Assembly (NCBI RefSeq): GCF_026283925.1
Contig: NZ_JAPDPF010000007.1
Span: 62,001-126,000 of the forward strand
Direction of reading: 5' to 3'
DNA from: Dyella halodurans
GTDB lineage: Bacteria > Pseudomonadota > Gammaproteobacteria > Xanthomonadales > Rhodanobacteraceae
Length of the DNA: 64,000 nt
Under the pieces are notes generated by a model, which did no database searches, had not been told where the DNA came from, and saw nothing but the letters and a program-made list of their open reading frames with translations. Below are positions 32,745-35,560 of this stretch, one piece after another (position 1 is the first letter of the stretch; each line of letters starts with the position of its first letter). A program made the translations under genes and the position numbers.

Positions 32745-33719
32745 ATGTCCCAGATCTACGCCCGCATCACGGGCACCGGCAGCGCGCTGCCCGAGCGGGT
32801 AGTCAGCAACGCCGAGCTCGAAAAGATCGTCGATACCAGTGACGAGTGGATTCGCACCCGTACCGGCATCCAGCAACGCCACATCGCCGCCGACGGCGAA
32901 ACCACCGGTGACCTGGCCACCATGGCTGCCCAGCGCGCGCTCGAGGCGGCTGGAGTCAAGGCCTCGGAGCTGGACCTGATCGTGCTGGGCACGACCACGC
33001 CGGACCTCATCTTTCCGTCCACCGCGTGCCTGGTGCAACACCGTCTGGGTGCCAACGGCTGCGCCGCGTTCGACCTCAATGCCGCATGCTCGGGCTTCGT
33101 CTACGCGCTGGGCGTGGCCGACAAGTTCATTCGTAGCGGCCAGTCCAAGAAGGTGCTGGTCATCGGCGCGGAAACCCTGACCCGCATGGTCGACTGGACT
33201 GAACGCGAATCCTGCGTGCTGTTCGGCGATGGCGCCGGCGCCGTCGTGCTCGAAGCCTCCGCGGAGCCGGGCATCTACGCCACCTGCCTGCACGCCGATG
33301 GCGGCTTCAAGCACCTGTTGTACAACCCCGTCGGCGTTTCCGTGGGCTTCAAGGACGAGCCGAACCACGGCGTGCGCATCCAGATGGCAGGCCGCGAGGT
33401 GTTCAAGGTCGCGGTGAAGACGCTCGATGCGCTGGTCGATGAAACCCTGCAGGCGGCCGGTATGGAAGCCTCCCAGATCGACTGGCTGATTCCACACCAG
33501 GCCAACCTGCGCATCATCGAGGCCACCGTCAAGCGCTTGCATATGCCGATGGAGCAGGTGGTGGTGACGGTCGATCAGCACGCCAATACCTCGTCCGGCT
33601 CGGTGCCGCTGGCGCTCGACTTTGCCGTGCGCTCGGGCAAGGTGCAGCGTGGGCAGACGCTGTTGCTGGAAGCGTTTGGTGGTGGTTTCACCTGGGCGTC
33701 GGCGTTGTTGCGCTACTGA
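32745..33719 (+). CDS. fabH: 3-oxoacyl-ACP synthase III
   Basis: A 324-residue condensing enzyme that starts fatty-acid synthesis by joining acetyl-CoA and malonyl-ACP. Cys115 in N-A-A-C-S-G-F, His near 250 in I-P-H-Q-A-N and Asn near 281 in H-A-N-T-S-S make the C-H-N triad. The G-I-Q-x-R loop near 41 and the C-terminal G-G-G-F-T-W-A-S-A-L-L signature are typical. The ATG at 32745 (MSQIYARITG) matches homologue starts. plsX, which normally lies between rpmF and fabH, is not present. A terminator follows. Confidence 0.97.
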   Translation: MSQIYARITGTGSALPERVVSNAELEKIVDTSDEWIRTRTGIQQRHIAADGETTGDLATMAAQRALEAAGVKASELDLIVLGTTTPDLIFPSTACLVQHRLGANGCAAFDLNAACSGFVYALGVADKFIRSGQSKKVLVIGAETLTRMVDWTERESCVLFGDGAGAVVLEASAEPGIYATCLHADGGFKHLLYNPVGVSVGFKDEPNHGVRIQMAGREVFKVAVKTLDALVDETLQAAGMEASQIDWLIPHQANLRIIEATVKRLHMPMEQVVVTVDQHANTSSGSVPLALDFAVRSGKVQRGQTLLLEAFGGGFTWASALLRY

Positions 33720-33744
33720 GGCGCGGGGCTTTTATTTCTACTTC

Positions 33745-33775
33745 ATGCCGTCCTTGTGGGCGGCATTGGTTTTTT
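33745..33775 (+). terminator. Intrinsic terminator after fabH
   Basis: A 9-bp stem (ATGCCGTCC / GGGCGGCAT with one G-T pair), loop TTGT, followed by TGG and a 7-base T-run. It should end the fabH transcript before the palindromic element. Confidence 0.8.
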
Positions 33776-33869
33776 AGGGTGTTCGTCGTGCCTATGGGGC
33801 TTTGGATGCGTTGCCATCCCGGCAGGCGCGGGACAAGCGCGCAGCGTGCAGCATGGCCGCAACTTCCTG

Positions 33870-34507
33870 CACCGTCATCCCCGCGAACGCGGGGATCCAG
33901 CGCCTTTCGCTCTGTCTTGAAGTGACCGCGACCGGGCTCGCCTGCGGCGGGCTTCCGAGCCGCTGCCGCGGCCCGGGTTACTTCTCTTTGCGTGGCCAAA
34001 GAGAAGTAACCAAGAGAAAGGCCACCCCGATGGCGCGCCTTCCGGGCTACGCCCTCCAGGTGCGCGGGTGGGTTACGGAGGTTTGTCGACAGGGCATCCT
34101 GCCCTGACGACAAACTGGCCGGCATCCGTGCCGGCCACCCTGCGGGCTTTTCCTCCACCCACCCGCCGCGCCATAGGGGACCCGGAGAGCGGTAGAGCAA
34201 CCCCAAAGCGAAAGCCAAAACCCGAGCCAAAGCGAAAGCCAAGCAAGTGCGATGAGCAGCGCAGCGCGCTGCTCGAGCCTTGGGCTCTGCTTTTGACTTG
34301 TGGGGCCCCTCACGGACTTGCCGAGCGTCAGCTCGGCAAGCGCCAAGCGGGGTGCCCTTCTCCTTGGTTACTTTCTCTTGGGCAAGCAAGAGAAAGTGAC
34401 CCGGCCTCCGGCAGGAGGACGGAAGCCCGCGGCAGGCGAGCCAGGTCGCGGTCACATCACCACAGAGGAAAAGGCGCTGGATCCCTGCTTTCGCAGGGAT
34501 GACGGTG
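33870..34507. repeat. 638-bp nested inverted-repeat element, non-coding
   Basis: Two arms (33870-34036 and 34340-34507, about 167 bases each) align as imperfect reverse complements along their whole length. The ends start CACCGTCATCCC and carry a small palindrome. Inside each arm is a 14-bp stem: GTTACTTCTCTTTG (33977-33990) with its exact complement at 33997-34010, and GTTACTTTCTCTTG (34367-34380) with a near-exact complement at 34387-34400. The 303-base centre holds four more hairpins: 34081-34115, 34116-34137, 34254-34274 and 34317-34340. No transposase is present and the open frames across it show only repeat-derived sequence such as V-I-P-A-K-A-G-I-Q. I interpret it as a MITE-like or composite REP element. 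The flanks 33776-33869 and 34508-34612 show nothing else. Confidence 0.8.
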
Positions 34508-34612
34508 AGGGGGAGTGGGAGGATAAGTGGCCCCCCTTTCCCCCGATACAGCTGCGTATGTCCGCCATTACTGGCACCATTCCGTTTTTCGTTGCCAGAA
34601 ATCCGTCGCTCC

Positions 34613-35560
34613 ATGACTCAGACTGCCAATACGCTCGCTTTCGTCTTCCCTGGCCAGGGTTCGCAATCCGTCGGCATGCTGGCCGAATTGGCCGCTGCGC
34701 ATCCGGAAGCGAAGGCCACGTTCGACGAAGCCTCCCAGGGCGCCGGCGTGGACCTGTGGACCTTGAGCCAGCAGGGCCCGGAAGACGAGCTCAATCGCAC
34801 CGAGAACACGCAGCCGGCACTGCTGGCCGCGAGCGTGGCGGTGTGGCGCGTATGGCAGAAGCTGGGTGGCGTGCAGCCGGCGCAGCTGTCGGGCCATAGC
34901 CTGGGCGAGTACAGCGCGCTGGTGTGCGCGGGCGCGCTCTCGTTGCACGACGCGGCGGCGCTGGTGGCCGAGCGTGGTCGACTGATGCAGGCGGCGGTGC
35001 CGCCGGGCGTGGGTGCGATGGCGGCGATCCTGGGTGGCGACGATGCGCAGATTGCCGCGGTGTGCGACGAAGTGGCGCAGGGGCAGGTGGTGTCGCCGGC
35101 CAATTTCAATTCGCCGGGGCAGCTGGTCATCGCCGGCAATACCGAGGCGGTGGATCGTGCGCTGGCGAAGCTGGCCGAGCTGGGCGTGAAGAAGGCGATC
35201 AAGCTGGCCGTGTCGGTGCCGTCCCATTGCGCGTTGATGCGTGATGCGGCCGATCGCCTCGGTGAGCGCATGGCGGCGCTGCATTGGCAGTTGCCGGTGA
35301 TACCGGTGGTACAGAATGCCGAGGCGCGCAGCTACGCCACGGTGGAGGAGATCCGGGGTGCGCTGCAGCGTCAGCTCTACCTGCCTGTGCGCTGGACCGA
35401 ATGCGTGCAGGCGTTGGTGACGGGCGGCGCAACGCGCGTGGCCGAGGCCGGTCCCGGCAAGGTGCTGGCGGGCCTGATCAAGCGCATCGACAAGGGCGTG
35501 GAAGCGCGCGCCATTGGCACGCCGGCCGAGATCGAAGCCACCCGTAGCGAGTGGGCTTGA
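34613..35560 (+). CDS. fabD: Malonyl-CoA:ACP transacylase
   Basis: A 315-residue enzyme that loads malonyl groups onto ACP. N-terminal VFPGQGSQSVGM, nucleophile Ser96 in G-H-S-L-G-E-Y and the catalytic His near 205 in P-S-H-C-A-L-M are present, plus the Q-N-A-E block near 235. The ATG at 34613 (MTQTANTLAF) is chosen by homology; the open frame extends back into the repeat element. No strong ribosome-binding site is visible. Because fabH is terminated upstream, fabD needs its own promoter, which I could not locate confidently. Confidence 0.97.
   Translation: MTQTANTLAFVFPGQGSQSVGMLAELAAAHPEAKATFDEASQGAGVDLWTLSQQGPEDELNRTENTQPALLAASVAVWRVWQKLGGVQPAQLSGHSLGEYSALVCAGALSLHDAAALVAERGRLMQAAVPPGVGAMAAILGGDDAQIAAVCDEVAQGQVVSPANFNSPGQLVIAGNTEAVDRALAKLAELGVKKAIKLAVSVPSHCALMRDAADRLGERMAALHWQLPVIPVVQNAEARSYATVEEIRGALQRQLYLPVRWTECVQALVTGGATRVAEAGPGKVLAGLIKRIDKGVEARAIGTPAEIEATRSEWA

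Follow-up and report, generated by a model that had tools for sequence, protein, structure and literature searches.

A dispersed, non-coding palindromic element, built from two inverted structured units of ~300 bp that each appear to carry a triplex-type pseudoknot module, is in our view the best explanation (with a probability of about 60%) for the sequence between fabH and fabD in the Dyella halodurans DNA analysed here, a stretch of 64,000 nucleotides that we call the window. The element is presumably non-autonomous. The CGTC REPs at its ends are already described. The element and its module are not matched in Rfam or in the open-access literature: for window positions 33400-35000 Rfam 15 returned no family at gathering score and only three sub-threshold matches, 14 distant loci gave no family match, and we noticed no description of element or module in the open-access literature searched by sequence and by concept (subscription journals were not covered).

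The palindromic element occupies positions 33870-34507 (no strand assigned), as delimited by its arms, its genomic copies and an alignment of ten copies, and is flanked by the fabH stop codon and the fabD ATG (34613); the closest relatives of this FabD belong to Dyella. Its two arms (33870-34029 and 34348-34507) are 160 nt long, 80% complementary and 318 nt apart. An earlier examination of the letters (hereafter the sequence-only reading) had thus recognized a real inverted repeat, for which it gave arms of ~167 nt and a centre of 303 nt. It had also placed a 14-bp hairpin in each arm; the hairpins exist and measure 15 bp (33976-34011, 100% complementary; 34366-34401, 93%). The predicted folding energy of the element is -448.5 kcal/mol, compared with -279.7 (s.d. 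9.2) for 20 dinucleotide shuffles (z = -18.4). A MAFFT alignment of ten copies revealed two homologous half-units of ~300 bp in inverted orientation, so that what had been taken for a centre with four more hairpins is actually the inner parts of these half-units. The right one lacks ~106 bp present in another copy (L002), with the deletion junction at approximately 34304..34314 (no strand assigned; alignment against L002 and reading of the junction). The window copy is a decaying one, among the copies with several broken parts. Protein coding was rejected, in agreement with the earlier view, as the long ORFs of one strand overlap those of the other and indels distinguish the copies. Both ends carry a CGTC-1 type REP, identified by sequence reading and pattern match: CGTC-ATCCCCGC-GAAC-GCGGGGAT-CCAG at the left (33873..33900, plus strand) and CGTC-ATCCCTGC-GAAA-GCAGGGAT-CCAG at the right (34477..34504, minus strand), with both CGTC tags facing outward. 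These are the 'VIPAKAGIQ' repeats mentioned in the sequence-only reading, and each shows the CGTC tag, the 8-bp stem starting with A-T, the 4-nt loop and the CCA tail by which PMC3733652 defines CGTC-1 REPs.

Each half-unit contains a ~90-nt module composed of a hairpin, P2, whose 5' arm consists of pyrimidines and whose 3' arm consists of purines, followed after a short linker by a purine tract. The left module of the window copy (33943..34033, plus strand, inferred folded strand minus) is row 1 of our alignment A1 and corresponds to the model match G000:C23:95943-96033. According to the A1 structure and sequence reading, it comprises, on the plus strand, hairpin H2 (33955..33976) and the P2 hairpin (33982..34005), the latter with pyrimidine arm 33982-33989, loop 33990-33997 and purine arm 33998-34005, and prolonged by an extension that pairs 33977-33981 with 34006-34010. 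The purine tract AAGAGAAA (34012..34019, plus strand), the presumed third strand, is the mirror of the purine arm AAAGAGAA. It is followed by GGCCAC (34020..34025, plus strand), the pseudoknot partner of the loop sequence GTGGCC (33992-33997) in stem P1. The right module (34344..34434, minus strand, inferred folded strand plus; A1 row 2, model match G000:C23:96344-96434) has on the minus strand its P2 hairpin at 34372..34395 (from sequence reading), a purine tract AAGGAGAA at 34358..34365 that is one position off the exact mirror AAAGAGAA, and GGGCAC, the partner of its loop, at 34352..34357. The fold is indeed more elaborate than that of REP units, as had been noted; the half-unit make-up and the occurrence beyond the order had been overlooked, as had the pseudoknot and the three-strand covariation round the GTTACTT...CTCTT hairpin.

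Our pattern searches of the order and the class listed 174 modules (35 genomes), the repeated G000 rows of the class search being omitted, and in 172 of them the tract mirrors the purine arm exactly, although the searches demanded only purines in the tract, not mirror order. The arm types TTCTCTTT, TTTCTCTT and TTTTCTTT are each accompanied by their own mirror tract, and likewise TTTTCTCT, TTTCTCTC and TTTCTTTT. Over the nine distinct arm/tract types among the listed modules, 70 of 72 positions match in mirror order, a value reached by none of 20,000 sets of permuted tracts (mean 49.3, maximum 68). In A1 (45 rows), T-A.A and C-G.G together account for 358 of 360 triples, and five of the eight positions vary; one of the two exceptions is the right half of the window copy. 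The presumed third strand covaries with both strands of the P2 stem, as expected of a triple-helix pseudoknot. Since there are few, related arm types and some modules are common to several copies, the independent triple changes are fewer than these counts. We rejected two other roles for the tract, namely that of a Watson-Crick copy of the arm (same-order identity 44/72, against 70/72 mirrored) and that of a partner for the other half-unit, given that the two half-units of an element may have different arm types and each tract nonetheless mirrors the arm of its own half (e.g., G008:C1 426544 and 427084). Two modules deserve separate mention. G279:C18:309-351, near a contig end, has the arm TTTTTTTT against AAGGGGAA, with tract AAGGGGAA and four consecutive G/T pairs. 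L308 (G904:C1:961540-961628) has a stem pair A-T instead of T-A and a C in the tract, possibly an alternative base triple; on the outward strand this single case reads as G facing T-A, a triple known to suit such pair inversions.

The P2 loop, in turn, covaries with the bases directly after the tract, in combinations such as GTGGCC-GGCCAC, TTGCCC-GGGCAC, TTGTCC-GGACAC and GTCGCC-GGCGAC. Over 40 distinct loop/partner combinations, 166 of 200 positions of the P1 stem are Watson-Crick, compared with a mean of 120.8 and a maximum of 138 in 5,000 permutations. The underlying search covered 200 pattern matches, 101 of which had the mirror at 7 or 8 of 8 positions; the other 99, as far as they were inspected by eye, represent this palindromic hairpin read on the opposite strand, with the exceptions of L175 (degenerate) and L194 (a collapsed copy). 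In A1, 87.1% of cells are paired overall, and the covariation of 0.369 compares with 0.159 for shuffled alignments (none of 500 reached it) and at most 0.154 for slid ones. P2 is 99.7% paired, with five of its eight pairs changed on both sides, and P1 86.3%, with five of six, falling to 37.8% if its register is slid by one. H2 is 75.6% paired and the extension 88.9%, with four of the five extension pairs invariant. A measure of further pair types did not exceed shuffles on A1 (173/500). A hairpin loop thus pairs outside its hairpin, with compensatory changes, as in H-type pseudoknots; a standard fold program, which knows no pseudoknots, returned only hairpins for the module. Covariation establishes stems P1 and P2 and the three-strand relation, together with the inverted arrangement and the dispersal. 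The predicted fold of the module is well supported by covariation, and the covarying loop combined with a mirror tract is the signature of a putative H-type pseudoknot with base triples.

Which strand folds can be approached through mispairs, since A/C mispairs are G.U on the other strand. The A1 cells with A/C versus G/T mispairs number 25-0 in the extension, 18-8 in H2 (32 of the 45 rows used), 5-3 in P1 and 1-0 in P2. When distinct pair positions are counted, the excess disappears or is reversed (H2 4-5, P1 1-3), and the strand signal comes mainly from one extension position. In the 174 listed modules, this variable position is C,A in 119, T,A in 50, C,G in 4 and T,G in 1, which on the other strand are U.G, U-A, C-G and one C.A. 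These counts and the wobble cells favour the centre-to-end strand, and we propose with moderate confidence that the strand running from the centre to the nearer end is the one that folds. Only 2-3 nucleotides would cross P1 on this strand, which is sterically tight. Our initial reading, a purine-motif triplex on the inward strand, was dropped after the pseudoknot and the wobble counts.

On the centre-to-end strand, the order of the module would be the 5' strand of P1, the pyrimidine tract, the 5' extension strand, the P2 pyrimidine strand, the 3' strand of P1 (inside the P2 loop), the P2 purine strand, the 3' extension strand and hairpin H2. In the resulting H-type pseudoknot, the pyrimidine tract would lie parallel to the P2 purine strand in the major groove and could form about eight U.A-U or C.G-C triples, in a manner resembling the telomerase RNA pseudoknot. 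As the half-units are inverted, a transcript that crosses the element from either side would carry the folded sense in its distal half; we infer this less surely, as we do the folding of RNA rather than of single-stranded DNA. The distal half is where a 3' exonuclease would arrive, and a triplex pseudoknot followed by H2 and the REP might be a strong barrier to it. As for function, we infer either protection of RNA 3' ends or a folded DNA for transposition. The flanking genes at 39 sites were codirectional in 18, convergent in 16 and divergent in 5 (convergent versus divergent, p = 0.027), directions being assigned by a codon score made for this analysis that 39 of 59 sites passed. We counted this convergent excess in favour of our preferred explanation; ordinary REPs show the same preference for sites behind genes. 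That the module acts as a nuclease-resistant 3'-end structure for the genes on both sides is a tentative proposal, about which we are more doubtful than confident.

Copies of the element are numerous. A 681-bp query found 123 matching pieces in the 4.69-Mb genome of D. halodurans, including ten copies, counting that of the window, in which both halves are present, and two further pieces that stop at contig ends; three copies (L004, L008, L009) are the same element in reversed orientation in the ten-copy alignment. Among relatives of the genus, family and order, 41 of 61 genomes match, with 20 of 20 in the genus. The dispersed family proposed in the sequence-only reading is thus confirmed, and its statement that such repeats recur across Xanthomonadales holds for many genomes of the order: by a strict pattern, at least 70 of 299 match. 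The class search gave 15 matching genomes out of 369, including 14 from 13 genera that lie outside the order. In the phylum, the covariance model R1 matched at least 37 of 299 genomes at E 1e-5 (rough E-values, stricter filters); the listed matches fall in the order (5), elsewhere in the class (19) and in one family outside the class (13). Six genomes of the genus have at least 74-133 model matches each. R1 holds the consensus letters of the tract, and its matches therefore favour similar tracts. We parsed 33 modules from 36 segments of newly found distant loci, after dropping three with a short hairpin. Eighteen of the 33 fit the mirror rule fully, 13 of them with arms that are not self-mirrors, five miss it by one, and ten lie outside the fixed register. 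Seven of these ten fit another register by eye (two in L302, and L309, L313 (-), L318, L319 and L323), L303 (2606) and L313 (+) have no fit, and L308 (+) holds the pair inversion. L319, L321 and L322, module-like matches from a family (f210) of the same phylum outside the class, have GTTCA...CGAAC in place of the usual linker and arms that are self-mirrors, which might mean distant relatives or convergence.

Self-comparison of 17 loci from seven distant genomes detected a long inverted self-match of ~580-770 bp in six (L208, L211, L219, L223, L224, L229); the others gave none of that length, and some of them are cut by contig ends. By blastn, the L002 element had only the module and its edge in common with 10 of 11 distant elements (plus one REP in L211) and did not match L308. 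The module is the most widely conserved part of the element. In a plasmid collection, a single match of 55 bp turned up, within an Aeromonas record of 4.9 Mb, and the phages searched contained none. Four exact patterns gave 1, 0, 0 and 0 matches in viral contigs, one of the zeros being a wrong-order control that is uninformative, as the right order also gave 0.

The history of the insertions was followed by searching flank pieces of eight copies in three relatives (G014, G012, G018). The nearest one, G014, has an element at two of the sites, those of L002 and L008 (L172, L173), and at the other six, as judged by eye, palindromic remnants: REPs that have collapsed (L192, L196), outer arms joined to each other (L193, L197), a copy with its collapse at the P2 hairpin (L194) and an outer palindrome (L195). 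Left and right palindromes are fused in L194 and L197, as expected of deletion between equivalent palindromes. In G012 and G018, five stretches are traceless (L200, L201, L202, L205, L206), L198 and L199 retain REP remnants and L203 has module-like sequence. From these occupied, remnant and traceless sites we conclude that presence differs between species and that deletions between equivalent palindromes erode the copies. No target-site duplication is readable, as the traceless sites are too diverged and the others hold remnants. The fabH-fabD gap, readable in 10 of 18 relatives of the genus, measures 188-376 bp, too short for the element. Three of them (L035, L037, L042) have in this gap a short inverted REP pair different from the window element, so the gap (window 33720-34612) seems to be a recurrent site.

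Other arrangements were also encountered. In L185 (G008:C1:1118200-1119972), three half-units follow one another in tandem, a REP preceding each of them, where an inverted pair would be usual. Dyella has a second dispersed family, ~650 bp long (L021-L027; G000 contigs C2, C18, C11, C20, C10, C19), whose resemblance to the window element is limited to H2, the P2 hairpin and a portion of the tract. An outer palindrome, CCTTCTCCCC...GGGGAGAAGG / CCCTCTCCCC...GGGGAGAGGG, surrounds several elements (L007, L195, the flanks of L021-L027), and the repeats therefore look nested in one another.

The main rival to a fold acting in RNA is one in which a single DNA strand folds and the end modules are sites read by a transposase or another enzyme, the whole being a MITE-like element. 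We consider this rather unlikely, even if several observations agree with it: modules occur in 74 distinct inverted pairs, 71 of them 200-799 bp apart (counted in + then - order; other orders, as in L185 and L074, were left out), presence or absence differs between species, and the module alone is common to distant elements, as expected of a recognition site. In addition, PMC3733652 describes frequent links between REP-like DNA and HUH transposases. Against it, PF01797 (Y1/RAYT type), the one transposase family sought, had 0 matches in the D. halodurans genome (G000), with 5 of 14 control genomes positive, no element carrying a gene between its modules was met in a non-systematic look, and sites that are diverged or remnant-bearing leave no readable target duplication; the mobilisation in trans suggested by the sequence-only reading gained no support from these results. 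Moreover, we know of no transposase that needs a three-strand fold.

Two further explanations were weighed. One is selfish palindromic DNA whose fold has no function, the compensation being a product of template switching among the palindromic copies and of gene conversion between them; REP and hairpin stems do change in a compensated way that template switching can yield, and decay proceeds by deletion between equivalent palindromes (L192-L197). Nevertheless, template switching copies in direct or reverse-complement order, never in mirror order, whereas in every type the tract mirrors its own arm; covariation extends to the pseudoknot partner, which is situated beyond the hairpin, and the module is conserved while the remainder differs. 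This reading is already disfavoured, and we regard it as highly improbable. The other takes the element for an oversized CGTC-REP dimer, the end repeats being the real element and the inside a passenger. By strict pattern, the window copy and L002 are indeed capped at both ends by CGTC-1 REPs with outward tags, but L004 has one cap and L005, L006 and L007 have none, and the alignment shows degenerate caps in some copies (L003, L006). Distant elements keep the module pair amid different surroundings, and of the 34 REP pairs listed, 32 have, by eye, a spacing of 51-136 bp, whereas the two with long spacings (603 and 730) are the window copy and L002. We find this scarcely credible; identity with a REP dimer or REPIN was rejected on the 576-bp spacer, the CGTC instead of GTAG tag and the absence of Y1.

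Three-strand covariation is rare, and here it provides a sharp structural prediction from sequence alone. If our preferred reading of a palindromic element with pseudoknot modules is true, an undescribed triplex pseudoknot exists at tens of places per Dyella genome and in other Gammaproteobacteria, and an old question, whether long palindromic bacterial repeats serve for RNA 3'-end protection or as transposition signals, becomes testable. We think it distinctly unlikely, at this stage, that the element represents a widespread bacterial RNA family in palindromic selfish elements, in which telomerase-like triple-helix pseudoknots guard transcript 3' ends in either direction, as convergent bacterial equivalents of the triple-helix elements found in eukaryotic transposons.

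Compared with known systems, the element is closest at its ends to CGTC REPs, including the neisserial dRS3 (Di Nocera et al. 2013, PMC3733652), with which the end repeats share the CGTC tag, 8-bp stem, 4-nt loop, CCA tail and inverted pairing. That article reports these REPs without a dedicated transposase, CGTC-1 repeats interleaved with other repeats, and spacers of 20-100 bp in most dimers. In contrast, 576 bp of structured, conserved sequence separate 33900 from 34477 in the window element, and the ~90-nt module is not part of the REP and occurs without REPs. Like MITEs, the element is short and non-coding, with terminal inverted repeats and many copies; it differs from them by the conserved pseudoknot-like module at each end. 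With REPIN/RAYT systems (GTAG REPs) it shares inverted pairs of hairpin repeats between genes, but its tag is CGTC and its genome lacks a Y1 transposase gene. In the intergenic mosaic elements of neisseriae, dRS3-type repeats bound other repeated sequence, an organization also seen here. In the telomerase RNA pseudoknot, which is of the H-type, the first loop is U-rich and lies in the major groove, parallel to the second stem's purine strand; the likeness is one of inferred topology alone, a works-like comparison in which our triplex is a predicted one. Finally, the ENE and dENE elements form RNA triple helices in eukaryotic and viral transcripts and in transposons; they clamp an A-rich tail in a U-rich loop, with a proposed role in 3'-end protection. 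A triple helix in the RNA of a mobile element, predicted in our case, would be common to both, whereas in the Dyella module the third strand would be part of the pseudoknot and mirrors a mixed purine arm.
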